55,204 nucleotides of DNA from Kribbella turkmenica (GTDB taxonomy: Bacteria > Actinomycetota > Actinomycetes > Propionibacteriales > Kribbellaceae), in NCBI RefSeq assembly GCF_004348725.1, contig NZ_SMKR01000024.1, positions 1 to 55,204 on the forward strand, written 5' to 3'. The notes under the pieces were generated by a model. That model was not told where the DNA came from, did no database searches, and saw only the letters and a list, made by a program, of their open reading frames with translations. Position numbers and translations under genes: made by a program. Shown here piece after piece: positions 40,201 to 55,204 of the stretch. Every line of letters starts with the position of its first letter. Within the stretch, counting starts at the first letter, position 1.

Positions 40201-40280
40201 GGCTTCACGAGGGGCGGTCGAGCAAACATCGCTCCAGAGTGGCGCGCATCACCCGAAAAGGCAATTCCGCAGGGTAAAGA

Positions 40281-40359: not shown

Positions 40360-40403
40360 GGTGCCAGCACCGGCGTTCCGCCGCCCCGGCTAAGCTTTCC
40401 GGC

Positions 40404-41207
40404 GTGGCAGACGCACCGGTGGGGATCTTCGACTCAGGCTTCGGGGGACTCACGGTCGCCCGCGCGGTGCTCGACCAGTTGCCGCACGAGCCGATCCTCT
40501 ACCTGGGTGACACCGCCCGCCAGCCGTACGGGCCGAAGCCGATCGCCGAGGTTCGCGAGTACGCGCTGGAGTGTCTCGACCACCTGGTCGAGGCCGGCGT
40601 CAAGATGCTCGTGATCGCCTGCAACTCGGCCAGTGCCGCGATGCTCCGGGACGCCCGCGAGCGGTACGACGTACCGGTGGTCGAGGTGATCCTTCCGGCC
40701 GCCCGCCGCGCGGTCGCCGCCACCCGGAACCAGCGCGTCGGCGTGATCTGCACGCGCGCCACCGCGGCGTCGCTGGCCTATGAGGACGGCTTCGCCGCCG
40801 CGCCGCAGGTCGAGCTGTTCACCCGGGCGTGCCCGAGGTTCGTCGACTTCGTGGAGTCCGGCGTGACGTCCGGTCCCGAGCTTCTGGAGGCCGCGCACGA
40901 GTACCTCGACCCCCTGGTCGAGGCCGGTGTCGACACCCTCATCCTCGGCTGCACGCACTACCCGTTGCTGACCGGCGTCATCTCGTACGTGATGGGCGAC
41001 AACGTCACCCTCGTCAGCAGCGCCGAGGAGTGCGCCAAGGACGTGTACGGCGTGCTGACCAAGACCGGCCTGCTCCGGCCGGATCACCTGCCCGAGCCGC
41101 GGCACCGGTTCGTCACCACCGGCAGCCCCGCCGAGTTCGCCGCCATCGGCTCCCGCTTCCTCGGTCCGGTACTGTCCGGCGTCGACCAGTTCGCCTGGAT
41201 CCGTTGA
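40404..41207 (+). CDS. murI: Glutamate racemase
   Basis: A 267-residue cofactor-independent racemase that supplies D-glutamate for peptidoglycan. The N-terminal [15 protein letters not shown], first catalytic Cys in [13 protein letters not shown], and second catalytic Cys in [11 protein letters not shown] with the adjacent His are all present; [14 protein letters not shown] is the family loop. GTG 40404 lies seven bases after TAAGCT (40391-40396), suggesting a leaderless mRNA. It continues the conserved block interrupted after cysM. Confidence 0.96.
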
Positions 41208-41225
41208 ATCTTCGAGCGCCTCGCT

Positions 41226-41420
41226 GTGGACAGCGCCCTGGACAGCGCCTTGACCGCGGACCCGTTCGTCGCGGGTGTGACGGGTCTCGCACCGGATGTT
41301 GTCCATGGCACCGGATCGGCCGCCGACGTGCGTGAAATCGCCGCCAGGCAACCGGATCTGCTGTGCGCCGGCATCGTGGGCGCCACCGGCTTCTCTGCGA
41401 AGGCGGCAACCCGCCGGTAA
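41226..41420 (+). CDS. Possible small protein (64 aa) between murI and the MBL-fold gene
   Basis: An open frame from GTG 41226 to TAA that fills most of the 224-base spacer. The composition (VDSALDSAL, PDVVHGTGSAADVREIAARQPDLL, ATGFSAKAATRR) is compatible with coding and has high third-position GC, but there is no ribosome site, no recognised family, and it covers the promoter of the next gene. It could be a remnant or chance. Confidence 0.3.
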   Translation: MDSALDSALTADPFVAGVTGLAPDVVHGTGSAADVREIAARQPDLLCAGIVGATGFSAKAATRR

Positions 41421-41431
41421 TGTTCAAGTCA

Positions 41432-42177
41432 TGAAGCTCACCGTGCTCGGCTGCTCCGGGTCCGTCCCCGGGCCGGACTCGGCCGCCTCGAGCTATCTGG
41501 TCACCGCCGAGGGGTTCAACCTGGTCCTCGACCTCGGCAGTGGCGCCCTCGGCTCGCTCCAGCGGCATCTCGCCATTCCGGAGATCGGTGCGATCGGCCT
41601 GTCCCACCTGCATCCTGACCACTGCATGGACCTGTGCGGCCTGTACGTCTCGGCCAAGTACGCACCGGGTGCGCCGATCCCGCGGATCCCGGTCTACGGC
41701 CCGCCCGGGGCGGCGTACCGGATGGCGCTGGCGTACGACCTGCCGCTTGACCCCGGGATGGAGGAGGAGCTGGAGTTCCACGCCTGGCAGAGCGTTCAGC
41801 AGATCGGACCGTTCACCGTCCGGACCGCTGAGATGGTGCACCCGGTGCCGGCGTACGCGATCCGGGTTGAGCACGGCAACAAATCGCTGGTCTACACCGG
41901 CGACACCGGGCCGAACGATGCGCTGGTCGAGCTCGCCCGCGGCGCCGACCTGCTGCTGTCCGAGGCAGCGCTGCCGGACAACGACCCGAAGAACCCGACG
42001 GACCTGCACCTCACACCGGCCGACGCCGGCGAACAGGCCGAGAAGGCCGCCGTCAAACGGCTGGTGATCACCCACGTGCCGCCCTGGTACGACCGCGAGA
42101 CCCAGGCCGAGAACGCACGCAAGACGTATCCCGGTCCGGTCGAGCTCGCCACCCCGCATGCCGTTTTCGACATCTGA
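41432..42177 (+). CDS. MBL-fold hydrolase, probable cyclic-nucleotide phosphodiesterase (Rv1339-like)
   Basis: A 248-residue metallo-beta-lactamase-fold protein. The metal motif is LSHLHPDHCMD (HxHxDH), with further ligands in MVHPVPAYAI, YTGDTGPND and ITHVPPW. By sequence and position (murI - MBL - rph) it corresponds to M. tuberculosis Rv1339, described as an atypical class II cAMP phosphodiesterase; substrate here is inferred. ATG 41432 follows TAATGT (41419-41424) by seven bases, a leaderless-type promoter. The next gene begins 20 bases before its stop. Confidence 0.88.
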
Positions 42178-42991
42178 CGGCGTTCGGTTGTGGACCGCAA
42201 CGACCGGCACGGCGACCTCCGCCGTACCGGTCGTCATCCTGCACGGCGGTCCGGGGTTGTGGGACGACCACGCCGCTCTCGCGCAGATGCTCGACGACCT
42301 GACCGTCGTGCATCGGTTCGACCAGCGGGGATGCGGTCGCTCGGGACCGTCGGACGCACTGTCCATGCGCCGGCTGGCGCAGGACATCGACGAGCTTCGC
42401 GTGTACTGGGGCCACGAGCGGATCATCGTGCTCGGTCACTCCTTCGGCGCGACGCTCGCGCTGTTCTACGCGGCCTCCTACCCGGACCACGTCGCCGGCG
42501 TGGTCTACCTCGACGGGGTCGGCATCGGCGACTGGCGGACGCCGTACCACGACGAGCACCTCCGCCGGACGACGCCGGCGCAACGGGAACGCCTGGCCGC
42601 GCTGGAGGTGGCGGATCGCACCGCCGACGAGGAGGTCGAGTTCCGCGTCCTGTCCTGGTTCACCGACCACGCCGACCGGTCGATGGCGATGACCTGGGCG
42701 CGGGAGAGCGCGTCGGTCGACCTGCCGATCAACTTCGCCGCGAACCGGGCCCTCGGCACGGAGATCACGTCCTGGCCGCCCGGCTACGTTTCCGGCCTCG
42801 CTGCCGCGTTGCCGATGCGGGTGACCTACATCCACGGCGCCGGCGATCCGCGTCCGGCCTCCGCCGTGCGGGAGCTGGCCGCGCACACCCCGCACCACAC
42901 GTTCCAGGTGATTCCGGACGCCGGGCACTCGCCGTGGCTCGAGCAGCCGGAGGCCGTGCGGAAGCTGCTGCGGGACATCGTGACGTCCTGA
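42158..42991 (+). CDS. Alpha/beta hydrolase, proline-iminopeptidase-like
   Basis: A 277-residue serine hydrolase: oxyanion loop VVILHGGPGLWDDH, FDQRGCGRSGPSD, nucleophile Ser in VLGHSFGATLALFYA, Asp in HGAGDPRPAS and His in DAGHSPWLEQP. HGGPG and DQRGCGRS are characteristic of prolyl aminopeptidase-like enzymes, but cytosolic esterases share them. ATG 42158 lies inside the preceding gene (20-nt overlap), implying cotranscription. It is not part of the conserved murI-rph block elsewhere and so marks an insertion. Confidence 0.88.
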   Translation: MPFSTSDGVRLWTATTGTATSAVPVVILHGGPGLWDDHAALAQMLDDLTVVHRFDQRGCGRSGPSDALSMRRLAQDIDELRVYWGHERIIVLGHSFGATLALFYAASYPDHVAGVVYLDGVGIGDWRTPYHDEHLRRTTPAQRERLAALEVADRTADEEVEFRVLSWFTDHADRSMAMTWARESASVDLPINFAANRALGTEITSWPPGYVSGLAAALPMRVTYIHGAGDPRPASAVRELAAHTPHHTFQVIPDAGHSPWLEQPEAVRKLLRDIVTS

Positions 42992-43031
42992 CCCTCGTCA
43001 GGGTCGAACGACGCCGGCGCTGCCGTCGACG

Positions 43032-43121
43032 GTGACGTACTTGGACTCCTGCCACCGGGTCTGGTTCGAGCTCGACGAGGACCTGCCGGCCACGCTCAAC
43101 CTCGACCGCGGCGACGACTAG
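43032..43121 (+). CDS. Short orphan reading frame (29 aa), possible gene remnant
   Basis: From GTG 43032 to TAG 43119-43121 the frame reads MTYLDSCHRVWFELDEDL then PATLNLDRGDD. It has a convincing protein-like composition and high GC3, and its stop overlaps the convergent ASCH gene stop by CTAG. There is no ribosome site; the frame is open back to 42984. It reads like the C-terminus of a lost gene. Confidence 0.3.
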   Translation: MTYLDSCHRVWFELDEDLPATLNLDRGDD

Positions 43122-43705
43122 TTGCCGATGGCCTCTAAGTACGCCGCGCCGCGGGGGCTCAGCTCGTAGCCGGTCTCGAGGCTGTGGGTGAGACCGAGGT
43201 TCTTCAGCTTGCGGACGTCCAGCTTGAAGCCGGCGGTCTCGCGGCCGAGCTCGGCGGCCAGGTCGGCGGCCCGGGTGGCCGGCTTGGACCGGATCAGGCG
43301 GAGGGTGTCCGTGGTCCAGGGCCCTTGTCTGCCGTCGTCGAAGCGGGCCAGGCGGGTCCGGAGCTCGGCCAGGTCCTCGGCTGTCAGGGTGGACTGGGCG
43401 GCGAGCTGATCGCGCGGGTCCGGGCCCTCGACCAGGTGGAACTTGATCAGGAACGTCGGCCAGTCCTCGTTGCCGCGGAGGCGGCGGCGGACGTCCTTGG
43501 CGTTGCGGCGGTCCGCGGCGGCGACGTCGGCGTCGTTGTCCGCGATCAGGTCCGGGTTGATCTCGCGGACACTGTCGATCTCGATCCGGCCGGCGTTCGT
43601 GCGGTAGATCCGCCCCTCGACCACGCGCGGCTCGGCCCAGCGCCGGTACGCCGTGGTGATCCTGCCGTCCGCGACGCCGTCGCGATCCGATCCGGCGAAC
43701 AACAT
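43118..43705 (-). CDS. ASCH-domain protein with C-terminal winged-helix-like region
   Basis: A 195-residue soluble protein. Residues ~25-100 have the ASCH (PUA-like, RNA-binding) pattern: GRIYRTNAGRIEIDSVREINPDLIADNDADVAAADRR and WPTFLIKFHLVEGPDPRDQL. The C-terminal ~80 residues (TRAADLAAELGRETAGFKLDVRKLKNLGLTHSLETGYELSPRG) read as a winged helix. GGAGGG precedes ATG 43705. It starts five bases after rdgB, so it is the third gene of rph-rdgB-ASCH; an RNA-related role fits but is inference. Confidence 0.8.
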   Translation of the reverse strand: MLFAGSDRDGVADGRITTAYRRWAEPRVVEGRIYRTNAGRIEIDSVREINPDLIADNDADVAAADRRNAKDVRRRLRGNEDWPTFLIKFHLVEGPDPRDQLAAQSTLTAEDLAELRTRLARFDDGRQGPWTTDTLRLIRSKPATRAADLAAELGRETAGFKLDVRKLKNLGLTHSLETGYELSPRGAAYLEAIGN

Positions 43706-43710
43706 GAGCC

Positions 43711-44316
43711 CTACCCTCCGAGTGCTTTCGCGACGATCGGGGCGAGCGCACGGAGCGCCTTGCCCCGGTGGCTGATCGCGTCCTTCTCCTCGACCGACAG
43801 CTCGGCCGTGGTCCGGTCGTACCCCTCTGCGGCGAACAGGACGTCGTACCCGAAACCGCCGGTGCCGCGGAGCTCGCGGATCACCGAGCCGCGCATCTCG
43901 CCGATCACGATCTCGTCCTCCGCGTGCGGCCGGACGAACGCGACCGCGGCCACGAACGACGCGCCGCGGCGCTCGTCCGGGACGTCCGCCAACTGCCCGA
44001 GCAGCAGGAGGTTGTTCGCGTGGTTGTCCTTGGCCGGCCCGGCCCAGCGCGCCGACAGCACACCCGGCATCCCGTTCAGCGCGTCCACGCAGATCCCGCT
44101 GTCGTCCGCGATCGACGGCAGCCCGGTGGCCGCCATCGCCGCGTGCGCCTTCAGCAGCGCGTTGCCCTCGAACGTCGGCTCGGTCTCGGCCGGCTCGTCG
44201 TACGGCGGTACGTCGCCCAGCCCGAGCACCTCGATCCCGGGCACGATCGGGGTCAGGATCCGGCGCAGCTCCTCGAGCTTCTTCTGGTTGTTCGAGGCGA
44301 GCAGAACACGACTCAC
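43711..44316 (-). CDS. rdgB: dITP/XTP pyrophosphatase (RdgB/HAM1 family)
   Basis: A 201-residue house-cleaning enzyme that hydrolyses non-canonical purine triphosphates. Features: [13 protein letters not shown] at the N-terminus, [13 protein letters not shown], catalytic region [35 protein letters not shown] and [11 protein letters not shown] 44316 overlaps the rph stop (GTGA). It follows rph as in other actinobacteria, but the pair is on the strand opposite to murI. Confidence 0.95.
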
Positions 44317-45029
44317 GCGAGCGCCTCCTGCTGCAGCTTGGTCAGCTCGGCGCAACCCGCCGTACCGATCTCCAGCAGGCTGTCGAGCTCGTTGCGGTCG
44401 AACGGCGCGCCCTCGGCCGTGCCCTGCACCTCGATGAACCTGCCGTCGCCGGTCATCACCAGGTTCATGTCCGTCTCCGCCCGGACGTCCTCCTCGTAGC
44501 AGAGGTCGAGCATCGGGGCGCCGTCGATGATGCCGACCGAGACCGCGGCCACCGAGCCGGTCAGCGGCTCGCTCTTCAGCAGCTTGCGGTCGCGCAGGTA
44601 CGACACCGCGTCGGCGAGGGCGACGTACGCGCCGGTGATCGCGGCCGTCCGGGTGCCGCCGTCGGCCTGCAGGACGTCGCAGTCGAGCAGGATCGTGTTC
44701 TCGCCGAGCGCCTTGTAGTCGATCACGGCCCGCAGCGAACGCCCGATCAGCCGGGAGATCTCGTGCGTCCGGCCGCCGATCCGGCCCTTCACCGACTCGC
44801 GGTCCGAGCGGGTGTTCGTCGACCGCGGCAGCATCGCGTACTCCGCGCTGACCCAGCCGAGCCCGGAACCCTTCCGCCACCGCGGCACGCCCTCGGTCAC
44901 GCTCGCCGCGCACAGCACCCGGGTCCGGCCGAACTCGACGAGCACCGAGCCCTCCGCATGGTCGAGCCACTTCCGGGTCAGGGCCACGGGCCGCAGCTGA
45001 TCCGGAGTACGTCCATCGATACGTGCCAT
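44313..45029 (-). CDS. rph: Ribonuclease PH
   Basis: A 238-residue phosphorolytic 3'-5' exoribonuclease that trims tRNA 3' ends. Features: [32 protein letters not shown], the phosphate-binding [48 protein letters not shown] and [14 protein letters not shown] 45029 lies seven bases after TAGGGT (45042-45037), so it may be leaderless; the SGNH gene ends ten bases upstream on the same strand, so read-through is also possible. Confidence 0.96.
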
Positions 45030-45039
45030 GCCTCAGACC

Positions 45040-45867
45040 CTATGCCTCCAGGCGCCGGACCTCCGAACGCACCGGGGCACGGAACTGGTTGACGGCCATC
45101 CGCGCGGCCCACGGCGTCAGGTCCCCGGCCCGCCGCCCGAGCCACGGAACGCCCTCCCGGACGAGCCAGACGGCGTCCGCCCACTTGCTCGGCGGCCTGG
45201 ACGCACAGTCCAGCTCGGGCGGTACGTCGATCCGCAGCCCGCGCCGGGCCAGCTCGTCGGCGAACCCACGGGCCAGCCGCCGGTGACCGCGCTCACCGGG
45301 ATGCAGCCGGTCGATGCTCCAGAAGTCCCGGCGGTACACCTCGGGGTAGTCGGCCATGTCCAGCCGGATCCCGCCGTACCTGGCGTGCAGGTCGTCGTAC
45401 ACGAGGTTGACCTGCTCGATCCGCTGCCACAGCGGGCGGCGCAGCCAGGCCGGCAGCCCGAACACCTGCCCGTGGTCGTGGAACCGGACGGTGAGCAGCA
45501 GGGCGCCGCGTGCGGTCAGTTGCTCGGCGCAGTGGTGCAGGCAGTCGCGGATCCGGCCGGCGTCGAAGGAGGACCGCAGCGTGTCGTTGACCCCGACGAT
45601 CAGCGAGGCGAGGTCGACCGGGCCGCTGCCGGTCTCGGGCAGTTGCTCGGTCGCGACCATCGGCGCGGTGGCGCCGCTGGTCGCGAAGTTGGCGAACGTC
45701 ACACGGTGGGAGCTGGCCAGGGCGTCGGCGAGCAGCGAGGCCCAGCCTCGCCACCCTTCGCCCGGGCGCGCGCCGGCACCGGAAAGGTCGGTCGTACTGC
45801 TGCCGTTCAACGGGTCCCCGACACCCACGGTGGTCGAGTCCCCCAGTGCCACATAGTGGAGGCTCAC
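45040..45867 (-). CDS. SGNH/GDSL-family hydrolase
   Basis: A 275-residue esterase/lipase-type protein without a signal peptide. Block I is YVALGDSTTVGVGD (nucleophile Ser), block II has ATSGATAP (Gly), block III is IVGVNDT (Asn) and block V is DRLHPGERGH (catalytic Asp and His). The extended C-terminal part (about 200-275) with WLVREGVPWLGRR is shared with actinobacterial relatives of unknown substrate. It uses GTG 45867 and is divergent from the Gfo/Idh gene. Confidence 0.9.
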   Translation of the reverse strand: MSLHYVALGDSTTVGVGDPLNGSSTTDLSGAGARPGEGWRGWASLLADALASSHRVTFANFATSGATAPMVATEQLPETGSGPVDLASLIVGVNDTLRSSFDAGRIRDCLHHCAEQLTARGALLLTVRFHDHGQVFGLPAWLRRPLWQRIEQVNLVYDDLHARYGGIRLDMADYPEVYRRDFWSIDRLHPGERGHRRLARGFADELARRGLRIDVPPELDCASRPPSKWADAVWLVREGVPWLGRRAGDLTPWAARMAVNQFRAPVRSEVRRLEA

Positions 45868-45950
45868 ATTCCGTCATGGTGGCGTCACCGGTCGAGCCCG
45901 CGGTGTTTCCTGGATGACGTCTGGGGCAATTCCAGCTGGAGGACCGGTGA

Positions 45951-45980
45951 TTGAAGGACGGAAGTGCGCGGAGCTAGGCT
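45951..45980 (+). promoter_or_regulatory. Promoter of the Gfo/Idh/MocA gene
   Basis: TTGAAG (45951-45956), 18-base spacer, TAGGCT (45975-45980). The predicted transcript would carry a leader of roughly 25 bases with AGGAG at 46000-46004, so this gene is not leaderless. Confidence 0.45.
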
Positions 45981-46014
45981 GCTGCAATCAACTATGTGCA
46001 GGAGTTGCTTGGTG

Positions 46015-47187
46015 ATGACTGATCTTCGGTTCGGCGTGGTGGGTCTCGGTGCCCGGAGCCGCATCGCGCAGTACGCCCACCGGCCCGGCGAGGGTTCGGA
46101 GGTCGTCGCCCTCGCCGACCCGGCCGCCGCCCAGCGGGACGCTGCGCAGGCGCAGTACCCGGACGCCACCACCCACTCCGACCACACCGAGCTGCTCGAC
46201 CAGAAGCTCGACGGGGTCTTCCTGACCACGCCGGACGACCTGCACGAGGACCCGGCGATCGACTTCCTCCGGGCCGGGGTGTCGGTCTTCGTGGAGAAGC
46301 CGCTGGCGATCACGACGTCCGGGTGCGACCGCGTGCTGCAGGCGGCGTACGAGAGCGGAGCCCGGCTGTACGTCGGCCACAACATGCGGCACATGCCTGT
46401 CGTCCTGACGATGCGGGAGCTCGTCCAGTCCGGTGCGATCGGCGAGGTGAAGGCGATCTGGTGCCGGCACTTCGTCGGCCACGGCGGCGACTACTACTTC
46501 AAGGACTGGCACGCCGACCGTCGCCGGACCACCGGGCTGCTGCTGCAGAAAGGTGCCCACGACATCGATGTGATGCACTGGCTGGCCGACGGCTACACCA
46601 CCCGTGTCAACGCGATGGGCGGACTCACCCTGTACGGCGGCATCGAGGACCGGCTCGACCGGTCGGACCAGCGCTTCGGCGACTTCGTCTCGTCGGACCA
46701 CTGGCCGCCGTTGTCGCAGAAGGGCCTGGCGCCGGTGATGGACGTCGAGGACATCTCGATGGCGAACCTCCTGCTGGACAACGGAGTTTTCCTCACCTAC
46801 CAGCAGTGCCACTACACGCCCGACTACTGGCGCAACTACACCGTGATCGGCACGGCGGGGCGGATGGAGAACTTCGGCGACAGCCCGGGCGGCGTCGTGA
46901 AGGTGTGGAACAGCAGGCGGTCCGAGTACCGCGAGGACGCCGACCTCGTGGTCGACATCCCGGACGCCGAGGGCGGTCACGCCGGCGCGGACCCCCGGCT
47001 GGTCGGCGAGTACATCCGGTTCGTCCGTGAGGGCGGCGCGACGCTCACCTCACCCGTCGCGGCCCGCGCCGCGGTCGCCGCCGGGTACGCCGCGACCACG
47101 TCCCTCCGCGACAACGGCACCCCGATCGACATCCCGCCCCTGGACCCGGCGCTGGTCACCTACTTCGACAACGGTCAGAGCCGCTAG
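46015..47187 (+). CDS. Gfo/Idh/MocA-family oxidoreductase
   Basis: A 390-residue NAD(P)-dependent sugar or cyclitol dehydrogenase-like protein. The Rossmann start FGVVGLGARSRIAQYA, ALADP, the family motif FVEKPLAITTSGCD and the catalytic-region Lys/His pattern QKGAHDIDVMHWLADG are present. The C-terminal domain (about 130-390) carries VEDISMANLLLDNG. ATG 46015 or GTG 46012 share the AGGAG site. It is monocistronic: its own promoter lies upstream and a hairpin follows four bases after the stop. Substrate unknown. Confidence 0.92.
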   Translation: MTDLRFGVVGLGARSRIAQYAHRPGEGSEVVALADPAAAQRDAAQAQYPDATTHSDHTELLDQKLDGVFLTTPDDLHEDPAIDFLRAGVSVFVEKPLAITTSGCDRVLQAAYESGARLYVGHNMRHMPVVLTMRELVQSGAIGEVKAIWCRHFVGHGGDYYFKDWHADRRRTTGLLLQKGAHDIDVMHWLADGYTTRVNAMGGLTLYGGIEDRLDRSDQRFGDFVSSDHWPPLSQKGLAPVMDVEDISMANLLLDNGVFLTYQQCHYTPDYWRNYTVIGTAGRMENFGDSPGGVVKVWNSRRSEYREDADLVVDIPDAEGGHAGADPRLVGEYIRFVREGGATLTSPVAARAAVAAGYAATTSLRDNGTPIDIPPLDPALVTYFDNGQSR

Positions 47188-47191
47188 GGGG

Positions 47192-47233
47192 ACGTCTCCC
47201 ATTCCCTGCAGCACGCAGAGAATGGTGAGACGT
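47192..47233 (+). terminator. Long hairpin directly after the Gfo/Idh gene
   Basis: Arms ACGTCTC-CCATTC-CTGC (47192-47209) and GCAG-GAATGG-GAGACGT (47215-47233) form a 17-bp stem with one mismatch and one bulge around loop AGCAC. It begins four bases after the stop, the position of a terminator; no T-tract follows. Confidence 0.5.
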
Positions 47234-47240
47234 GCGCTGG

Positions 47241-47307
47241 TACCATCCGTGTCGTGACCACGTACGCCGCCATGCGAATGCTGAGCCCTCGATGCGGAGG
47301 ACTCTAG
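47241..47307 (+). CDS. Leader-peptide ORF (17 aa, coding 47254-47307) with its -10 box
   Basis: TACCAT (47241-47246) lies seven bases before GTG 47254, which opens a 17-codon frame reading MTTYAAMRMLSPRCGGL and ending TAG (47305-47307). A strong intrinsic terminator follows 26 bases later and the DUF62-like gene 92 bases later. Promoter, short translated leader and terminator in front of a gene is the classic arrangement of ribosome-dependent attenuation; the trigger (Met, Cys, Arg or a translation inhibitor) is not evident. It is too short for homology evidence. Confidence 0.4.
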
Positions 47308-47333
47308 CGGCGCGTGCACTGACGCTTGCAGCC

Positions 47334-47367
47334 AGAGAGGTCCCCGACGTCGGGGGCCTCTCTTTTT
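47334..47367 (+). terminator. Intrinsic terminator in the leader of the DUF62-like gene
   Basis: AGAGAGGTCCCCG (47334-47346) pairs with CGGGGGCCTCTCT (47351-47363) over 13 bp with one T-G wobble, tetraloop ACGT, followed by a run of five T including the last stem base. This is an unusually canonical terminator for a GC-rich genome and lies 33 bases before ATG 47400, so the coding sequence must start after it. Confidence 0.75.
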
Positions 47368-47399
47368 CGTCCCAGCTGCGAACATCTCCAGGAGCACGC

Positions 47400-48248
47400 A
47401 TGTACCCGATCACCTACCTCACCGACTGTTCCGACGGGAACGCCCAAGCCCGGCTGAGCACCCGCGTCGGCGCGCTGTTCGGCCAGTCGCCGGCCATCGT
47501 GGCGGTCGACGGCTCCGACCCCGAGGCCTTCGCCGCCCTCACCTTGCTCGACTGTCTGAGATCCACGGAGTCCCTGGGCGAGGACGGTCATCCGACCATC
47601 ACCCTGCTGAACATCGCGCCCCGCGACGGCGTGTGGCCGAACGGCGTACCGTTCTGCTACTTCTGGTTCGGGCAGCACCTCGTCGCGAGCACTTTCAATC
47701 CGCGCGCGCTTCACCTGGTACGGCGTGAGCTCGACGTCCAGAAGGTGTTCGTCACCGACATCCGCGAGGTCCTCGCGTCGGCGTCCTGGTCGAACCTGAC
47801 GCCGGCCGAGGTGGACAGGATCGCGGACACCCAGTTCCGCAGCCTCTGGTACCTGCCGCTGCTCGCCAGGTGGATCGCCGACGACCGCCCGGTCCCGTCG
47901 ACGCCGACCGTCGTACCCCTGACTCCCGACGAGCCGCCGACCGTTAGCGTCGTCGACAACTTCGGCAACTGCAAACTCAACTGCTCCCCGGACTCAGCCG
48001 GCTTCGCCCTGGGTGCCGAACTCCCCGTCACCCACCGCACCCCGGCCGGCGAAACCGCCGTCACGAACGTCCGCTGCTACCCCCACCTGACAGCCGTCCC
48101 GCGCAACGCCCCCGGCCTGATCCCAGGCTCCTCCGGCACCAACTACCTCGAACTGGTCATCCGCGGAGGATCAGCCGCAGCCCACTTCGGCCTGCACCCG
48201 GGAGACGCGCCGCTGCCCGGCGCGAGAGGTGCCAGAGGCGGGATTTGA
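47400..48248 (+). CDS. SAM-hydroxide adenosyltransferase-like (DUF62) protein, divergent
   Basis: A 282-residue soluble protein. The start YPITYLTDCSDGNAQAR resembles the DUF62/fluorinase opening (normally TDFG...D), and TVSVVDNFGNCKLN matches its DxFGNxxxN segment; SSGTNYLELVIRGGSAAAHFGLHPGD fits the family's C-terminal NSxGYLELA...G end. DUF62 enzymes hydrolyse S-adenosylmethionine to adenosine and methionine. The N-terminal motif is changed and a FCYFWFGQHLVAST region replaces the usual middle, so activity is uncertain. ATG 47400 has AGGAG five bases upstream. The last 19 bases overlap the 3' end of tRNA-Leu on the other strand; the GARGARGG tail is therefore tRNA complement. Confidence 0.6.
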   Translation: MYPITYLTDCSDGNAQARLSTRVGALFGQSPAIVAVDGSDPEAFAALTLLDCLRSTESLGEDGHPTITLLNIAPRDGVWPNGVPFCYFWFGQHLVASTFNPRALHLVRRELDVQKVFVTDIREVLASASWSNLTPAEVDRIADTQFRSLWYLPLLARWIADDRPVPSTPTVVPLTPDEPPTVSVVDNFGNCKLNCSPDSAGFALGAELPVTHRTPAGETAVTNVRCYPHLTAVPRNAPGLIPGSSGTNYLELVIRGGSAAAHFGLHPGDAPLPGARGARGGI

Positions 48249-48310
48249 ACCCGCACGCCCGGGGGCACCGGCACCTAAAGCCGGCGTGTCTGCCGTTCCA
48301 CCACTCTGGC
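48230..48310 (-). tRNA. tRNA-Leu (anticodon UAG)
   Basis: On the minus strand the sequence folds as a class II tRNA: acceptor GCCAGAG/CTCTGGC, D-arm with GGTGGAACGGCAGAC, anticodon stem CCGGC/GCCGG with loop TTTAGGT (anticodon TAG), a long variable arm (TGCCCCCGGGCG) and T-arm GCGGG-TTCAAAT-CCCGC, discriminator A. CCA is not encoded. The long variable arm and the anticodon both indicate leucine (reads CUA/CUN). Confidence 0.95.
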
Positions 48311-48317
48311 TGGGGAA

Positions 48318-48355
48318 GTCGCCTCCCCTTGGGAGGACATCCTAGGGGAGGCGAC
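48318..48355 (-). terminator. Terminator hairpin between the VWA gene and tRNA-Leu
   Basis: A perfect 12-bp stem (48318-48329 with 48344-48355) and 14-base loop, starting six bases after the VWA stop on the minus strand and ending seven bases before the tRNA 5' end. There is no T-tract beyond TT. Confidence 0.6.
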
Positions 48356-48361
48356 CAGGGG

Positions 48362-50017
48362 TCAGCGGCTCTGCAGGGCGTCGACGAAGACCTGGCGGAG
48401 GTCGGACGGGTTGCGGGCGACGTAGCTCTGGCCGCCGGTCGCCTTGGCGAGCGCGCGGAGCTCGTCGGCGTTCGCCTCCGGGCCCATGCCGAGGGCGATG
48501 ATCCGGACCGGGCGGGCCGGGTCCTTCAGGCCCTCGAGGGTCCGGACGGTTTCCTCCAGCGTCGGGCTGCCCGGGTCGTCGTTCTTGCCGTCGGTGAACA
48601 GCAGGATCGAGTTGACCGCCTTGGAGTCGTACTGCTGCCGGACCGCGCGGACCGCGGCGATCGCGGTGTCGTACAGGCCGGTGCTGCCGTTCGGGATCGG
48701 GCGCTGGACCTTCAGGTTGTCCAGGATCTTCGTGCGCTGCCGGTCGGACAGCGGCGCGATCGGGACGAGCTCCTTGTAGTCCGCCCCGAGCTCGCCGATC
48801 TTGGTCGAGAACGTCCACAGCCCGAGCGAGGCGCTGTTCGGGAAGAGTGACAGACCGCCCGCGGCCGCCTCGATGGTCAACTGCATGCGGGTCTTCTTGC
48901 CGACCACCTCGGCCATCGAGCCGGAGATGTCGATCACTGCCAGGGAGTGCGTGGACAGCGACAGCCGGGTCCAGTTCAGCAGCGTCTTGTCGATCGTCTC
49001 GCCGTTCGGCTTGGGCAGCTGCGTCAGGTCACCGACGCCGCGGCCACCGCTGAGCGGGCTGAACAACGCGTCCCGGAAGCCGGCCTCGTCCCGTGCCTGG
49101 GCGGCGCCGTCGGTGAGCAGTTCGGCCGCGAGCGACTTGGCGGCGTCGGTGGCCTGCTCGACGTCCGACTTGGCGGTGACCACGACCGGGTAGTCCAGCG
49201 TGAGCGTGCCGGTGGCCGGCACGACCGCTTTCAGCTGGGCGTCCGGGTGGTCCTCCTGGTACTTCACGAAGCTCTGCTCCGACGCCGGTACGACGACCCG
49301 GCTGCCGTCCTGGTCTGCCCGGCCGAACAACGCTACCGGGTCGGTGTACGGCTTGGCCATCGAGCCGAGCCGCTGGGCCAGCGGCACGACCACGGTGGCG
49401 ACCTGAGTCTCGGACGCCGACGTCCGCTGCCGCTCCGACTGGACGGCGAGCAGCGCGAGCGCGCCCGGCGACGTGTTCAGCGGATCGAGCAGCGCGGGCT
49501 CGGCGGCTCCGAACGCGCGCAGCCAGGACGAGGTGTCCGCGAAGTTGGTGTTCCGCCCGACCAGCACCAGCGGCGACGAGGCGATGGACGGCACGGCGAC
49601 CGCCGGGACGCTCTCGCCGTCGTCGGCCTGGGCCACCCAGAGCGAGGAGTCCGGGATCCACAGGTCGGGACGGTTGTCGGTGCTGTTGGCGAGTTCCTGG
49701 GCGACCTTCGCCGAGGGAGCCGCGGTGATGGTGAACTGCAGACACGGAGTACCGTCGTCGCCGCCCTTGGTGGCCAGCGACTTCGCCGCCGACTCCAGCG
49801 AGGGCTGCATCTCGGGCGTGGCGCTCAACGACACCTGCGTGGGGTCGTCGCACGACTGGCCGGCTCCGCTGAGGAAGCCGTCGGCGCCCGCCTCGGACCC
49901 GAAGGACCGGACCACGAACACGGCGCCCAGCGAGATCACCAGAAGCCCGACCGCGGTGATGTACACCGAACGGCGGTTGTTGTTACTTCGCGTCACCGCA
50001 GAGGAATGTTTTCCCAT
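48362..50017 (-). CDS. Membrane-anchored solute-binding-like protein with von Willebrand A domain
   Basis: A 551-residue protein. An N-terminal membrane helix (about residues 17-37) after a basic start anchors it with the bulk outside. Residues ~55-330 read like a type II substrate-binding protein (TPEMQPSLESAAKSLA, RPDLWIPDSSLWV, ASSPLVLVGRN, YPVVVTA). A von Willebrand A domain follows (about 355-551) with an intact MIDAS start DISGSM (363-368), a conserved Thr in STGLYDTAIAAV and FTDGKND. GGGAGGGAGGGA lies upstream of ATG 50017. Such VWA/SBP fusions are found in actinobacteria without assigned function; metal-dependent binding at the cell surface is inferred. A CRP-type site lies about 210 bases upstream. 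Confidence 0.88.
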   Translation of the reverse strand: MGKHSSAVTRSNNNRRSVYITAVGLLVISLGAVFVVRSFGSEAGADGFLSGAGQSCDDPTQVSLSATPEMQPSLESAAKSLATKGGDDGTPCLQFTITAAPSAKVAQELANSTDNRPDLWIPDSSLWVAQADDGESVPAVAVPSIASSPLVLVGRNTNFADTSSWLRAFGAAEPALLDPLNTSPGALALLAVQSERQRTSASETQVATVVVPLAQRLGSMAKPYTDPVALFGRADQDGSRVVVPASEQSFVKYQEDHPDAQLKAVVPATGTLTLDYPVVVTAKSDVEQATDAAKSLAAELLTDGAAQARDEAGFRDALFSPLSGGRGVGDLTQLPKPNGETIDKTLLNWTRLSLSTHSLAVIDISGSMAEVVGKKTRMQLTIEAAAGGLSLFPNSASLGLWTFSTKIGELGADYKELVPIAPLSDRQRTKILDNLKVQRPIPNGSTGLYDTAIAAVRAVRQQYDSKAVNSILLFTDGKNDDPGSPTLEETVRTLEGLKDPARPVRIIALGMGPEANADELRALAKATGGQSYVARNPSDLRQVFVDALQSR

Positions 50018-50224
50018 CGCGGCAGGTCCCTCCCTCCCAGAGGCTGACTGCGCGCGCAGATTACCCGGTTTCGGCTGGTCAGGGCCAAGGTCACCGTGGT
50101 TCCGCACCCACCCGGTCGATGACCGCAACCGAACGCCGACCGGCCTGGGAGTACCGCTCTTTCGTAGGAACGCTCAAAAACTCACGGAGCGTAGTCCTCC
50201 GGCTGCGATGCGGTGAGATTGTCG

Positions 50225-50240
50225 TGTGATCCAAATCACA
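50225..50240. promoter_or_regulatory. CRP/GlxR-type binding site
   Basis: TGTGA-TCCAAA-TCACA: both half-sites are perfect matches to the TGTGA-N6-TCACA consensus of cAMP receptor proteins. It lies 208 bases upstream of the VWA start and 104 bases past the bcp stop, so the VWA gene is the likely target. Confidence 0.65.
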
Positions 50241-50258
50241 TTAGATCCTCCACTCAAA

Positions 50259-50293
50259 CGACCGTTCCATGGACCACCCGCGTGAAACGGTCG
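50259..50293 (-). terminator. Inverted repeat downstream of bcp
   Basis: CGACCGTT (50259-50266) and AACGGTCG (50286-50293) form an 8-bp stem with a 19-base loop, about 50 bases past the bcp stop; on the minus strand it is followed by TTT. A weak terminator or an operator. Confidence 0.35.
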
Positions 50294-50343
50294 AAGGTTT
50301 TCCTCCACCGCGGGACCCGGACCGGTAGGTCAGTCACCGTGGC

Positions 50344-50811
50344 TCAGAGGCCCAGGTCGCGCCGCAGCTTGGCCACGTGGCCGGTCGCCTTGACGTTGTA
50401 CTGCGCGACCGCGATCTTCCCGTCCGGGTCGACGACGAACGTGGACCGTATGACCCCGGCGACCTTCTTGCCGTACATCGTCTTCTCGCCGAAGGCGCCG
50501 TACGCGGTCAGCACCTGCTTGTCCGGGTCGCTGAGCAGCGGGAACGTGACCGCGTCGCGCTCGCGGAACTTGGCCAGCTTCTCCGGCCTGTCCGGGGAGA
50601 TGCCGAGAACGGTGTACCCGGCGGCCTGCAGGGAGTCGAGCGAGTCGCGGAAGTCGCAGGCCTGCTTGGTGCAGCCCGGGGTCATCGCGGCCGGGTAGAA
50701 GTAGACGATCACGTTCTTCCCGCGCAGGTCCTGCAGTGCCACCTTGTTGCCGTCGGCATCGGAAAGGGTGAAATCCGGTGCGGTGTCACCGACGGTCAGA
50801 CGTTCGCTCAT
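50344..50811 (-). CDS. bcp: Thioredoxin-dependent peroxiredoxin Bcp
   Basis: A 155-residue peroxiredoxin of the Bcp/PrxQ group that reduces hydroperoxides. The start GDTAPDFTLSDADGNKV, the peroxidatic Cys in MTPGCTKQACDF with the resolving Cys five residues later, and VLGISPDRPEKLAKF are diagnostic. The usual PKANTPGCT is PAAMTPGCT here. ATG 50811 has GGAAGGG upstream. TACCAT about 40 bases before the start on the minus strand could be its -10. Confidence 0.94.
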   Translation of the reverse strand: MSERLTVGDTAPDFTLSDADGNKVALQDLRGKNVIVYFYPAAMTPGCTKQACDFRDSLDSLQAAGYTVLGISPDRPEKLAKFRERDAVTFPLLSDPDKQVLTAYGAFGEKTMYGKKVAGVIRSTFVVDPDGKIAVAQYNVKATGHVAKLRRDLGL

Positions 50812-50916
50812 CAGGGGCCCTTCCACGATCGATCGACTGACCGCAATGGTACGGGTGGCCGCTCCGGCCGAGCGCGGCGAGTTGCGTGCGCGGGTGTCGC
50901 AGGGTGGAGTGGACTC

Positions 50917-51960
50917 ATGCGGGCGATGACGGTGACGACGGGGAAAGCTGATTCTGCCGCGGTAGGAGAGGTCGAGGAGCCGCCGCTGACCGACGGCTCG
51001 ATCCTGGTCGAGGGGCTGCTGACCGGGATCTGCGGGACCGACGTGGAGCTGGTGACCGGCGCGTTCGGCACCGGCAGACCGGGGTCCGACCACCTCGTCA
51101 TCGGCCACGAGTCGCTCGGTCGCGTCCTGGAGGCGCCGGAGGGCTCAGGCTTCACCGAGGGCGACCTGGTGGCCGGCGTGGTCCGCCGGCCCGACCCCGA
51201 GCCCTGTCCGGCGTGTGCGCGCGGCGAGTGGGACTTCTGCCGCAACGGGCGGTACACCGAGCGCGGCATCAAGGAGATGGACGGGTACGGCGCCGAGCGG
51301 TGGCGCGTGGATCCGTACTTCGCCGCGCCGGTCCCAAAGCAGCTCGGGCGCCTCGGCGTCCTCGTGGAGCCGGCCAGCATCCTGGCCAAGGCATGGGAGC
51401 AGGTCGACCGGGTCGCGTCCCGGTCGTGGTTCGGGCCGGAGCACGTGCTCGTCACCGGCGCCGGTCCGATCGGTCTGCTGGCCGCTCTGATCGCCACCCG
51501 GCGCGGGTACGCCGTACACGTCCTGGACCGGGCCGAGGACGGGCCGAAGCCCGAGCTGGTGCGTTCACTCGGCGGGAGCTATCTCACCGACCTGGCGGAC
51601 CTGACTGTCGCACCGGACGTCGTGATCGAGGCCACCGGCGCCGGTCAGGTGGTGTTCGACTGCGCCAAGCTGCTCGCGCCTGCCGGAGTCATGTGCCTGA
51701 CCGGCATCTCGCCCGGTCCGGCGACTCTCGACGTACAGCTGGACGCACTCAACCGTCAGCTGGTCGTGCGCAACGCTGCTCTGGTGGGGTCGGTGAACGC
51801 GGCCAAACGGCACTACGCGGACGCGGTCGACATCCTCACCGCGACCGACAGGGCGTGGCTGGAGCGCTTGATCACGCGGACGGTGCCACTGTCCGACTGG
51901 CCGTCCGCGGTGGTCCGGGAACCGGACGACATCAAGGTGGTCGTCGACCTGCGGGCGTGA
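50917..51960 (+). CDS. Zinc-dependent glucose-1-dehydrogenase-like oxidoreductase
   Basis: A 347-residue medium-chain dehydrogenase. The catalytic zinc ligands are in GICGTD (C39) and GHESLG; the structural-zinc loop is PEPCPACARGEWDFC. VLVTGAGPIGLLAALIATRRG is the NAD(P)-binding motif. The YTERGIKEMDGYGAERW loop and the C-terminal domain (VVFDCAKLLAPAGVMCLTGIS, LVGSVNAAKRHY) match glucose 1-dehydrogenases of the archaeal/actinobacterial type. I chose ATG 50917 with GGAG eight bases upstream. The frame is open further upstream over the bcp gene but is not coding there. The real sugar or alcohol substrate is unproven. Confidence 0.88.
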   Translation: MRAMTVTTGKADSAAVGEVEEPPLTDGSILVEGLLTGICGTDVELVTGAFGTGRPGSDHLVIGHESLGRVLEAPEGSGFTEGDLVAGVVRRPDPEPCPACARGEWDFCRNGRYTERGIKEMDGYGAERWRVDPYFAAPVPKQLGRLGVLVEPASILAKAWEQVDRVASRSWFGPEHVLVTGAGPIGLLAALIATRRGYAVHVLDRAEDGPKPELVRSLGGSYLTDLADLTVAPDVVIEATGAGQVVFDCAKLLAPAGVMCLTGISPGPATLDVQLDALNRQLVVRNAALVGSVNAAKRHYADAVDILTATDRAWLERLITRTVPLSDWPSAVVREPDDIKVVVDLRA

Positions 51961-52035
51961 CCTGCAAGGATGGAGCCAGCATTGCAGGCCCGGCCATCCC
52001 GGGGCAGCCCCGAGGAACGAAGGGAGTGTCGACAG

Positions 52036-52299
52036 GTGTCGGACACGAAGGCTCGGACCGCCGAGCAGATCGAGGCGGACATCGAGGCCACCCGCGTGCG
52101 ACTGGCCTCGACCGTGGACGAGCTGGTCGACCGGGCGCACCCGAAGAACGTGGCCAAGCGGCAGGTCGAGCAGGCGAAGGCGCAGGTCTTCGACGAGCGC
52201 GGCCAGTTGCGCACCCAGAAGATCGTCGCGGTCGGCGGTGCCGCGGTCGGCGTCCTCGCCGTCCTGCTGCTGATCCGCCGGCTGGTGGGTCGCCGGTGA
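52036..52299 (+). CDS. DUF3618 small membrane protein
   Basis: An 87-residue protein: the N-terminal TAEQIEADIEATRVRLASTVDELVDRAHPKNVAKR is the DUF3618 signature and predicts an amphipathic helix; one membrane helix lies at about residues 64-81. GTG 52036 with GGGAG at 52022-52026 is preferred over the longer frame from 51970. The GroES-like gene overlaps its stop (GTGA), a pairing seen in many actinobacteria whose meaning is unknown. Confidence 0.88.
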   Translation: MSDTKARTAEQIEADIEATRVRLASTVDELVDRAHPKNVAKRQVEQAKAQVFDERGQLRTQKIVAVGGAAVGVLAVLLLIRRLVGRR

Positions 52300-52634
52300 C
52301 TCCTCGCAAGCGGCTCTCCGACGACAAACTGCCGATCCGGATGCTGCACGACCGGGTCCTGGTCTCGCTCGAGCAGGAGGGCGAGCGGAAGTCCTCGGCG
52401 GGCATCCTGATCCCGGCGACCGCGCAGATGGGCCGCCGGCTCGCCTGGGCGAAGGTGGTCGCGATCGGCGCCAACGTCCGTACGGTCGAGGTGGACGACC
52501 GGGTGCTGTTCGACCCGGAGGATCGGGCCGAGGTCGAGGTCCGCGGCGACGACTACATCCTGCTCCGCGAGCGCGACCTGCACGCGGTGGCGGCCGGCCG
52601 CCTCGAGGACGGCCAGACCGGCCTCTATCTCTGA
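52296..52634 (+). CDS. GroES-like co-chaperonin
   Basis: A 112-residue protein with the Cpn10 core: IRMLHDRVLVSLEQEGERKSSAGILIPATAQ at the start (mobile-loop region after Leu-His-Asp-Arg), AKVVAIGANVRTVEVDDRVLF and DDYILLRERDLHAV. The mobile loop KSSAGILIP keeps the hydrophobic IL pair that binds GroEL. No groEL is nearby, so this is a second, orphan Cpn10 rather than the main groES (inference). The end overlaps the convergent gene by 10 bases. Confidence 0.88.
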   Translation: MTPRKRLSDDKLPIRMLHDRVLVSLEQEGERKSSAGILIPATAQMGRRLAWAKVVAIGANVRTVEVDDRVLFDPEDRAEVEVRGDDYILLRERDLHAVAAGRLEDGQTGLYL

Positions 52635-53224
52635 CGGGCGCGGCTAGGGGGCCTGAGCTGGAACGGGACCTCGCGATCGCCCTCGTTGAACTTGATTCTC
52701 AGCACCGCCGTCCGGGTGGTGTCGGGGATGACGAACAGGACCTCGCCGACCTTCGTGGAGTCGCCGCTGACGAGTTCGTTGAGCCCGCCGGAGGCTGGAT
52801 AGGTGTCCCGCCCGACGATCACGCGGAAGTTGGCGTCCCAGAAGTTGGCGTCGTACCGGCTGTAGCTGATCATGCGGACGGACAGGCTGAGCGCCAGCTT
52901 GCCGTCCGCGTCCGGCCTGGTCGTGGCGCTCACCAGTTCGTAGGCGACCTCGCCGACGCGGATCGGCTGCCCGTACGGAAGTGCCACCTTCAACTGGCCG
53001 CCGGGTGCGATGGACGACCCAGGCCCGGAACTCGGCCCAGGCGGCACCGGGGACGAAGACTGTTGCGGGGTTGTTGTCGCAGGCAAGTCTGTCGCCGACT
53101 CACCCAGCACGCCGACCTGGTTCAGGCCCAGCAAGAGGCCCGTGCCCGCGGTGATCAGGGCGGCCAGCGCAGTCAGCATCCCTGGCATGGTCGTCCACCA
53201 ACTCGCCGGCTTGTCATCGGCCAT
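52625..53224 (-). CDS. Single-pass membrane protein with extracytoplasmic beta domain
   Basis: A 199-residue protein. One membrane helix (about residues 13-34), a Ser/Pro/Gly-rich linker (46-75) and an extracytoplasmic domain of about 125 residues (VGEVAYELVSATTRPDADGKLALSLSVRMI, FRVIVGRDTYPASGG, EVLFVIPDTTRTAVLRI) that resembles the immunoglobulin-like DUF4352 domain. No catalytic motif. The gene overlaps the GroES-like gene tail to tail. Confidence 0.75.
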   Translation of the reverse strand: MADDKPASWWTTMPGMLTALAALITAGTGLLLGLNQVGVLGESATDLPATTTPQQSSSPVPPGPSSGPGSSIAPGGQLKVALPYGQPIRVGEVAYELVSATTRPDADGKLALSLSVRMISYSRYDANFWDANFRVIVGRDTYPASGGLNELVSGDSTKVGEVLFVIPDTTRTAVLRIKFNEGDREVPFQLRPPSRARQR

Positions 53225-53297
53225 GAGCGCCCCCTACCAGAACTGTTGTTCTCCGGAGCGCGGTAGTCAACGGGTGACTACCGTCCGCTCATGCGGA

Positions 53298-54395
53298 TCA
53301 GCTCAGCCGGTAGAGGCGTACGGCGTTGTCTCGGCCCCACATCGTTGCCCCGCGGGCGGCGTCGTCGGGTGACCAGTCACCCTGGTCCACGAAGCTGCCG
53401 AGCACCGAGGTCACCGCTCGCCGCCACACGGTGGCGCCGAGGTAGTGCAGCTCGGCCGGTCCCCACGCGTCGGAGGAGTAGAGCAGTTTGGCGAACGGCG
53501 CCAGCTCCAGTCCCTCCGCGAGTACGGCGGCCGCCCGCGCGCCGACGTACATGGTGGTGAGCCCGAGGTCCAGGTGGACGTGCGGGAACACGTGGGCGAG
53601 ATAGCCGGCCTCACGGTGGTAGGGGTAGCAGTGCAGCAACACCACTTGGGTGCCGAGTGGTTCGACCAGACGCAACCACTCGGTCAGCAGCGCTGGATTG
53701 ACCTTGTGCAGCTGAAGGTCGGTGTCGCCGAGGCCAGCGTGCAACTGCAACGGCAGGCCGCGCCGCGCACCGGTCCACAGCAACCAGCGCAAGAGCACGG
53801 GGTCAGCGACCCGCTTCGCGCCGGTCGCGTACCACCGATCCAGAGCACTCAGTACGTCGGCCGGACTCGGCTCAGCCGGGTCGAAGTCGAACCCGTACCG
53901 GTACGCCACGATGCTCTTGAGTCCGACCGCCCCAGCTGTCCGCTCCTCCAGTCGCCGTACCAGCGCGTCAGGTACGGCGGCCGCGGTGGACTCCTGCGTG
54001 GCCACGTACTCGAGCTCGGCCTCCAAGCGCACCACCTCGTGCGTGCGGCAGCCGCTCAGCTTCGCCAACTCGCCGACGTCGGTCAGGGAATCGGCCAGAT
54101 GCCCGGTGTCGACCAGGTAGTCGCTCACCCCGGCCGCACCGAGGAAGATCCGATTCGCGTCCTGCCGAGAACGCGCGGCCAGGTAGTCGTCGGGCGAAGC
54201 GTGCGGCTCCAGGCCCAGCAGCGGAGCGCAGTACTTACGGACCGCAAACCCCAGCTGCGAGTCGAACGTCGACATCCACGGCGGGACCGGGCGGTCGGAC
54301 TCGGTGATCAGCTTCTCGAAGCCGGCCCGGTCGAGTGGTTCCTTCATCGCGCCGTGCACGTGGTGGTCAACCAGCCGCAGGTTCTGAAGGTCCAT
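53298..54395 (-). CDS. Amidohydrolase-family metal-dependent hydrolase
   Basis: A 365-residue TIM-barrel hydrolase of the amidohydrolase-2 type. Metal/active-site residues: HHVH near residues 11-14 (LVDHHVHGA), a conserved Lys (GLKSIVAYRYG), His in GLPLQLHAGLGDTD, His in VVLLHCYPYH and Asp in LLYSSDAWG. The sequence resembles the N-terminal hydrolase part of FluG-type proteins. ATG 54395 has a GGGGGG site. It is divergent from a TetR gene across 175 bases, which may regulate it. Substrate unknown. Confidence 0.88.
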   Translation of the reverse strand: MDLQNLRLVDHHVHGAMKEPLDRAGFEKLITESDRPVPPWMSTFDSQLGFAVRKYCAPLLGLEPHASPDDYLAARSRQDANRIFLGAAGVSDYLVDTGHLADSLTDVGELAKLSGCRTHEVVRLEAELEYVATQESTAAAVPDALVRRLEERTAGAVGLKSIVAYRYGFDFDPAEPSPADVLSALDRWYATGAKRVADPVLLRWLLWTGARRGLPLQLHAGLGDTDLQLHKVNPALLTEWLRLVEPLGTQVVLLHCYPYHREAGYLAHVFPHVHLDLGLTTMYVGARAAAVLAEGLELAPFAKLLYSSDAWGPAELHYLGATVWRRAVTSVLGSFVDQGDWSPDDAARGATMWGRDNAVRLYRLS

Positions 54396-54534
54396 CGCTA
54401 GCCCCCCGAATGGCTGCTGCGGCCACGCGTGCCGGCGCCGAGGCCGGCCGGTGCGACGTCGTACATCTCCCACCCCTTCACCCGGTCCTGGTTACAGCTT
54501 TCCACTCCTTGCCGGCGGGAGCGCGCGAAATCCG

Positions 54535-54564
54535 TTGCCAAAAGGCGAACGGTCGTGCTTTTAT
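54535..54564 (+). promoter_or_regulatory. Promoter of the TetR gene
   Basis: TTGCCA (54535-54540), 18-base spacer and TTTTAT (54559-54564), six bases before GTG 54571, predicting a leaderless mRNA. Confidence 0.45.
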
Positions 54565-54570
54565 TGGAGG

Positions 54571-55167: not shown

Positions 55168-55187
55168 CCCTTCGTCCAGATCTGGAG

Positions 55188-55203: not shown

Positions 55204-55204
55204 G

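Follow-up and report, generated by a model that had tools for sequence, protein, structure and literature searches.

The DUF62-like gene of Kribbella turkmenica considered here is probably under ribosome-mediated transcription attenuation, with the supply of methionyl-tRNA as the signal. The gene lies in a stretch of 55,204 nucleotides (contig NZ_SMKR01000024.1, forward strand; hereafter the window). The case is built on the anatomy of the locus, on its conservation in five groups of actinomycetes, on leaders with methionine runs and matching antiterminators in Patescibacteria-type loci, and on predicted switching. From these we infer that the leader is translated, that transcription terminates, that the attenuator responds to Met-tRNA and that the gene plays a part in the economy of methionine and S-adenosylmethionine (SAM). 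The first-pass annotation had proposed ribosome-dependent attenuation of this gene, and the conservation of the short ORF, the alternative pairings and the position of the conserved codons lend support to that proposal. A more daring reading, to which we attach slightly less than even credence, is that a Met attenuator is common to Actinomycetota and Patescibacteria, by common descent or by transfer with the gene. On this reading the gene product would be a methionine-starvation enzyme, and its attenuator the mark of a third branch of the SAM-cleaving fold that is distinct from the classical hydrolases and from the halogenases.

The elements of the locus follow each other on the forward strand. 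A -10 box of the TANNNT type, TACCAT (47241..47246), lies 7 nt upstream of a GTG codon, and 7 nt is the usual spacing between a -10 box and the transcription start. The transcript therefore most likely starts with this GTG (around 47254), which would make the leader ORF leaderless. The ORF, VTTYAAMRMLSPRCGGL-stop, occupies 47254..47307 and has 17 codons plus TAG. Its presumed sensing core, ATG CGA ATG CTG (M-R-M-L; 47272..47283), is delimited by sequence conservation and by the ribosome occlusion scans described below. Both the minimum free energy and the centroid fold of the window leader contain a hairpin 1:2 (47280..47308), which would sequester the antiterminator strand as long as its 5' side is free of a ribosome. 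The 5' strand of the predicted antiterminator, segment 2 (47290..47305), starts about 9 nt past the last Met codon. Its partner, segment 3 (47336..47352), is at the same time the 5' arm and loop of the terminator; the computed duplex of the two has an energy of -19.7 kcal/mol, and the occlusion scans delimit both strands as well. The intrinsic terminator (47334..47367) consists of a hairpin of 13 pairs with a 4-nt loop (47334-47363; -26.1 kcal/mol) and a run of T's up to 47367. The Shine-Dalgarno sequence AGGAG (47390..47394) and the ATG of the regulated gene at 47400 (47400..48248; 282 amino acids) complete the arrangement. The -10 box, the GTG-initiated ORF ending at 47307, the 13-bp terminator and the AGGAG-ATG start had all been read from the sequence in the first-pass annotation, and all of them lie where it had put them.

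The RNA from leader to terminator folds better than 198 of 200 shuffles. A simple terminator scan of 40000-55204 found 3 sites, of which the leader terminator alone exceeds 5 pairs. Shuffled sequences gave 4.3 such sites, i.e., there is no excess, and the significance of the terminator thus rests on its conservation. Some further features of the locus may be mentioned. An inverted repeat (GACGTCTC-CCATTC ... GAATGG-TGAGACGTG) is seen by eye at 47190-47234, where it separates the upstream stop codon from the -10 box; none was seen in the neighbouring sequence of L002, and the repeat may end transcription of the upstream gene or serve as an operator. TTGCAGC (47326-47332) and GCTGCGA (47375-47381) flank the terminator and are able to pair around it. 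By eye, GCTGCAA or something similar is retained across many Kribbella leaders and is not seen in Streptomyces. A tRNA gene on the minus strand (48230-48310) runs into the 3' end of the DUF62-like ORF, which stops at 48248, and shares 19 bases with it.

In the proposed mechanism, RNA polymerase would start at the leader GTG, and a 70S ribosome would translate the leaderless ORF behind it. With ample Met-tRNA, the ribosome would reach the stop codon at 47305 and cover segment 2; the terminator hairpin would fold and transcription would stop. When Met-tRNA is scarce, the ribosome would pause before decoding AUG: this codon would stand in the A site, and CGA, or the codon before it, in the P site. 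The waiting ribosome would cover the 5' half of hairpin 1:2 and leave segment 2 free to pair with the 5' arm of the terminator, and transcription would continue into the gene. If no ribosome is present at all, hairpin 1:2 would hide segment 2 and the terminator would form.

The leader ORF, the promoter spacing and the terminator precede the gene at all 67 actinomycete loci examined, with 61 distinct leaders from Kribbella, Jiangella, Catellatospora, Actinospica and Streptomycetaceae, counts that are not independent, as leaders within one genus are related. The first-pass annotation had made its case depend on the conservation of the short ORF, and on this point it has held. The loci comprise 24 from Kribbella, 31 from other genera (Jiangella, Catellatospora, Actinospica, Streptomyces, Kitasatospora and Streptacidiphilus) and 12 strong class-level matches, six of which have leaders identical to members of the other-genus set and probably stem from the same genomes. 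The set of relatives was 80 kept of 91. Repeats of Kribbella loci (L048-L062) were excluded from the counts, and in L024 the gene is split, L026 being its second piece. Weak matches (L025, L027) and the class matches restricted to the C-terminal domain (L141, L142) were kept outside the leader comparison; L096, with a frameshifted leader tail, was excluded from the ribosome scans.

The core CGA ATG [A/C]TG is found in 61/61 distinct leaders, preceded by ATG in 57 and by CTG in 4, which gives a conserved peptide core R-M-[M/L], usually with a Met before the R. In 59/61 leaders a TANNNT box lies exactly 7 nt upstream of an in-frame leaderless start, and in the remaining two the distance is 6 or 8 nt. 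Starts with TANNNT at 7 nt in either of the other frames relative to the core amount to 0/61. The distance from start to core is 18, 21, 24, 27, 30 or 33 nt. A terminator hairpin, judged by a lenient criterion, is present in all 61. Examples of leaders are MQHTATLAMMRMMPPPPEALR from Streptomyces, VTHGQAMMRMLHSMCGRSMLA from Jiangella, MTAGFAMMMRMMPRSPEALR from Actinospica and VTSPEPQPSLRMMRPVGRETAGA from Catellatospora. Two Streptomyces loci, L096 and L107, have broken matches to the DUF62-like protein, by decay or sequencing error; in L096 the leader is frameshifted too.

Within Kribbella, 24 of the 38 genomes of the genus have a clear orthologue; a 25th match, weak and partial, was excluded. 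All 24 orthologues have a leader of the form V-[TI]-x-[YN]-...-[ML]-R-M-L-S-P-R-[CYFS] and a terminator. Three of them have L-R-M-L as core, the C-terminal tail of the peptide varies (e.g., GGL or GRTSAA), and there are one or two internal Met codons only. Hairpin 1:2 is kept, by eye, in most of the variant sequences and is weaker in L017. An order-wide search at E 1e-10 found the gene in 24 of 293 genomes, all of this one genus, and none elsewhere in the order. The pattern ATGATGCGAATGMTG is rare: among 394 class genomes it has 15 matches, 11 of them before the DUF62-like gene. The 4 matches elsewhere lack the leader anatomy by eye. A search of 58 relatives for the exact core pattern gave 20 matches, exclusively in genomes that carry the gene. 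A use of the leader for other genes was rejected on these grounds. Curated leader-peptide families gave no match for the four Met leaders tried. Phage and plasmid collections contained no homologue, and an origin from either was dismissed for this reason.

Switching was predicted from the energy with which upstream RNA can sequester the 5' arm of the terminator before the 3' arm is made, calculated for each ribosome position. The ribosome was assumed to occlude the RNA up to +16 of the P site, a limit taken from general toeprint knowledge. In the window, sequestration amounts to -12.4 kcal/mol with CGA in the P site and to -11.2 kcal/mol with AUG there, against -3.1 kcal/mol at the stop codon and -4.6 kcal/mol without a ribosome. 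It weakens only to -7.7 kcal/mol when the P site holds the third core codon, and the stall codon is thus not sharply defined in the window; in Kribbella at large, too, much of the pairing survives a ribosome at that codon. Stalling is favoured in the scans at the positions where CGA or AUG occupies the P site. A contrast of more than 3 kcal/mol between CGA and the stop codon or no ribosome was calculated for 60/60 testable leaders, as compared with 6-13% of shuffles depending on the clade, by a measure that was adopted after the results of a cruder base count had been seen. The contrast of the window itself was equalled by 1 of 100 shuffles.

The cruder count of paired nucleotides saw a clean switch in 39/60 leaders versus 8-21% of shuffles by clade (Kribbella 12/24, Jiangella 3/11, Catellatospora 1/1, Actinospica 2/2, Streptomycetaceae 21/22); for the window leader it found no clean switch. 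At the CGA position, 35-78% of shuffles reach 6 nt of pairing by base count, and the paired-base count per sequence proved to be a weak statistic in GC-rich RNA. The duplex energy is modestly better than that of mononucleotide shuffles in Jiangella and Kribbella and no better in Catellatospora. When the strands were swapped between clades, the cognate partner was clearly favoured in Kribbella and Jiangella and slightly in Streptomycetaceae. Actinospica showed no cognate preference and paired best with strands of Streptomycetaceae; Catellatospora showed none either, its own strand being the weakest of the five. In Kribbella, Jiangella and Streptomycetaceae leaders, the antiterminator pairing starts about 9-11 nt past the last Met codon.

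A second line of evidence comes from 34 homologous loci of metagenome-assembled genomes, most of which belong by title to groups of Patescibacteria. In 12 of them a short upstream ORF has at least four Met in six residues, examples being MMAMM, MMMGMM, MMMEMM and MMMMMMRMM; the strict criterion leaves out the other 22 and was fixed after a first list of leaders had been seen. Controls gave 0/1111 windows of 350 nt (from both strands of the same loci, coding sequence included) and 0/1700 shuffles. With at least three Met in six residues, the count is 15/34 loci versus 13/1111 control windows. The antiterminator was examined in 15 Met-rich leaders, i.e., the 12 mentioned and three picked by eye. 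In 11 of these, at most 6 of 500 shuffles paired as well as the stretch behind the Met run does with the 5' arm of the terminator, and this pairing sets in some 9-13 nt past the final Met codon. The duplexes of L100, L102, L119 and L125 fell short of this limit of 6 in 500. Over all 15 leaders, cognate duplexes average -18.4 kcal/mol versus -11.6 kcal/mol for swapped ones, which was reached in 0 of 20000 permutations. A terminator is present in 15/15, although a weak one (-3.1 to -5.7 kcal/mol) in L127, L125 and L116.

A second draw of 379 genomes from one phylum added seven homologues, all distinct from the first 34. The strict criterion selects one of the seven, and at least three Met in six residues occur in 3/7 versus 0/122 control windows. 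L168 has MMMAMMM with, by eye, a leaderless-type start, L162 and L163 have MMM, and L165 and L167 show M-x-M-R by eye. Upstream of L164 and L166 neither MMM nor M-x-M-R was found. The L166 homologue, where no Met leader was found, reads through 12 in-frame TGA, 1 TAG and 2 TAA codons, which suggests recoding of TGA or decay.

The regulated protein had been called DUF62-like from the start, and the name has proved apt for what appears to be a divergent member of the family. The only Pfam domain matched by its 282 residues is SAM_HAT_C (PF20257; 34.4 bits, cutoff 25.5). The N-terminal domain PF01887 has no match in the protein, in five homologues or in its own genome. An AlphaFold2 model built from 40 homologues (pLDDT 91.3) matches structures of DUF62 proteins, fluorinase and chlorinase over nearly the full length in Foldseek. 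VIA-align superimposes it on these structures with Z 15.5-20.1 and an rmsd of 3.2-3.9 over 221-245 residues, and the next unrelated row has Z 6.4. By its fold, the N-terminal half thus also matches the SAM hydrolase family despite the missing PF01887 match, and the model assigns the SAM hydrolase/fluorinase fold to the product. A single-sequence search found no relative among solved structures, and a profile search found solved relatives for essentially the C-terminal domain only. The catalytic triad of the family, D68-R75-H127, and its motifs are given in PMC4859513. We placed this numbering on the sequence by motif. In an hhalign alignment to a classical member, which has a probability of only 50%, Ala73 and Phe146 lie opposite D68 and H127, and Arg75 is unplaced; Ala73 and Phe146 are invariant in 40 sequences. 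This weak alignment would tell against the hydrolase triad. Binding of SAM seems plausible; its hydrolysis by the known mechanism seems doubtful.

The genes next door fit a role in sulfur amino acid or SAM metabolism without proving it. In Catellatospora (one locus, L065:4003-5175), metK (TIGR01034) follows downstream on the same strand. In Streptomycetaceae, 21/22 loci have an amino-acid ABC transporter behind the DUF62-like gene, again on the same strand, with genes for a family 3 solute-binding protein (SBP_bac_3), a permease and an ATPase (e.g., L075:3905-6409). The same transporter genes come next in one of two Actinospica loci; the other stops at the end of the contig. Neither metK nor the transporter genes were found in the Kribbella and Jiangella loci examined. 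At least two Streptomyces loci (L077, L069) have a Cys-containing short ORF between the DUF62-like gene and the transporter. The one in L077, MSGTLLLVRRRHVDNVRCAADLCR, resembles the Cys-type leader NF042934 with 14 bits at a cutoff of 27, which suggests a second attenuator in the same locus.

The supply of methionyl-tRNA is the most likely signal, as the codons of the leaders indicate. Met accounts for 192 of 1142 non-start residues in 60 actinomycete leaders. In the Patescibacteria-type leaders, the Met runs are retained and the residue between them varies (A, G, E, H, N, R); since the neighbouring residue varies and Met stays between the phyla, the Met codons are the common feature. Met and Cys codons had both been suspected at the outset. 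Of this pair, Met has persisted as part of the conserved core; the position of the Cys codon reads C, Y, F or S within Kribbella, and sensing of Cys, being therefore unlikely, was abandoned. An antibiotic sensor had been rated equally likely, a parity that has vanished with the finding of Met runs common to actinomycete and Patescibacteria-type leaders. A sensor of the whiB7/erm kind, in which a translation inhibitor would induce the gene by halting the ribosome on the nascent peptide R-M-[M/L], could explain why the core peptide including its Arg is strictly conserved in Actinobacteria. It would be served by the anatomy, which suits any stall at a core codon, and the host actinomycetes are rich in antibiotics. 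It is nevertheless unlikely: a variable residue between retained Met runs is easier to reconcile with a codon signal than with an arrest peptide, the sole Pfam match of the product is a SAM hydrolase-type domain and not a resistance or WhiB7-type family, and the genes nearby in other genera suggest SAM or amino-acid metabolism. The Met codons of Kribbella, however, are few for a starvation sensor, which is a point against Met sensing, and the CGA, as constant in Actinobacteria as the Met codon, is unexplained by it.

CGA makes up only 24 of 600 Arg codons in sampled homologous gene bodies, yet 61/61 in the leaders, and the predicted stall places it in the P site. One might suppose that this rare codon is itself what is sensed, the switch being set by inosine-adenine wobble in the P site or by tRNA-Arg(ICG) that is scarce or damaged. 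Yeast offers a parallel, in that CGA wobble in the P site is considered to impede elongation at the codon that follows (PMC6301793). Still, the core CGAATG[AC]TG is found upstream in 0/34 Patescibacteria-type loci, where Met runs recur, and in Streptomyces and Jiangella leaders CGAA can, by eye, pair with UUCG, a structural reason for its retention there; we regard sensing of CGA as very improbable. By analogy, the yeast case suggests, without proof, that CGA wobble in the P site may sharpen the pause at the Met codon. A riboswitch for SAM or another metabolite, with the short ORF being incidental, has but a slender chance. Nucleotides from ORF to terminator are highly conserved within Kribbella, and SAM riboswitches are known in Streptomyces (PMC8079986), but between genera this stretch is not conserved, while the frame and core of the ORF are. 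At gathering score, the sole Rfam match in the whole window was a tRNA, and five homologous loci gave none, the weak matches being far below, and a riboswitch was rejected as a candidate on this account. That the hairpin merely serves as terminator for the oxidoreductase gene upstream, with the short ORF being there by chance, has a practically negligible probability. The hairpin does sit between two genes of the same strand, but this reading is already contradicted by the comparison of genera: the upstream sequence varies, whereas leader, terminator and downstream gene stay together and the ORF and promoter spacing are conserved. Moreover, another inverted repeat is seen by eye nearer the upstream stop codon.

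Control of methionine supply is usually ascribed to riboswitches, T-boxes or repressors. With a Met-run leader and its full alternative hairpins, methionine would join the amino acids known to be sensed by attenuation, and the uncharacterised family linked to this leader acquires a testable role in methionine or SAM economy. If the more daring reading is true, Patescibacteria with their minimal genomes would use ribosome-mediated attenuation. In these organisms, which have very small genomes and few described regulators, coupled transcription and translation would then be seen to sense amino acids. No report of ribosome-mediated attenuation in Patescibacteria was found in the open-access literature searched. 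The kind of mechanism is known; the methionine specificity, the gene and the second phylum appear to be new within that literature.

How does the system compare with established ones? In whiB7 and erm leaders, the position of a ribosome on a short ORF chooses between alternative hairpins and sets expression. The present leader would work by the same principle; unlike those, it seems to respond to the Met codon, and its target gene looks like a metabolic one. With the SAM hydroxide adenosyltransferases (DUF62), fluorinases and chlorinases, the product shares the overall fold, the C-terminal domain and the positions of D, PxNG and DxFGN (motifs from PMC4859513); it differs by Ala73 and Phe146 opposite D68 and H127, as far as the weak alignment goes, and by having no PF01887 match. 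A predicted leaderless, Met-containing peptide has also been described as the metL leader of metNIQ in Streptomyces lividans, yet that peptide is without a Met run and belongs to another gene, and PMC8079986 reports no typical intrinsic terminator there. The closest relatives in design are the actinobacterial attenuators of trp, trpS, leuS and ilvB, in which a short ORF with regulatory codons, often leaderless, precedes alternative antiterminator and terminator hairpins (PMC1262725, PMC8079986). Codon runs in a short ORF recur here as a Met run in most actinomycete clades, in a conserved in-frame ORF that is predicted to be translated; a terminator between ORF and gene and an antiterminator that depends on the position of the ribosome are both predicted from the sequence. 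In contrast to the trp-type systems, it is the Met codon that is enriched, the gene is DUF62-like and neither biosynthetic nor a tRNA synthetase gene, and the design stands before the same gene in a second phylum.
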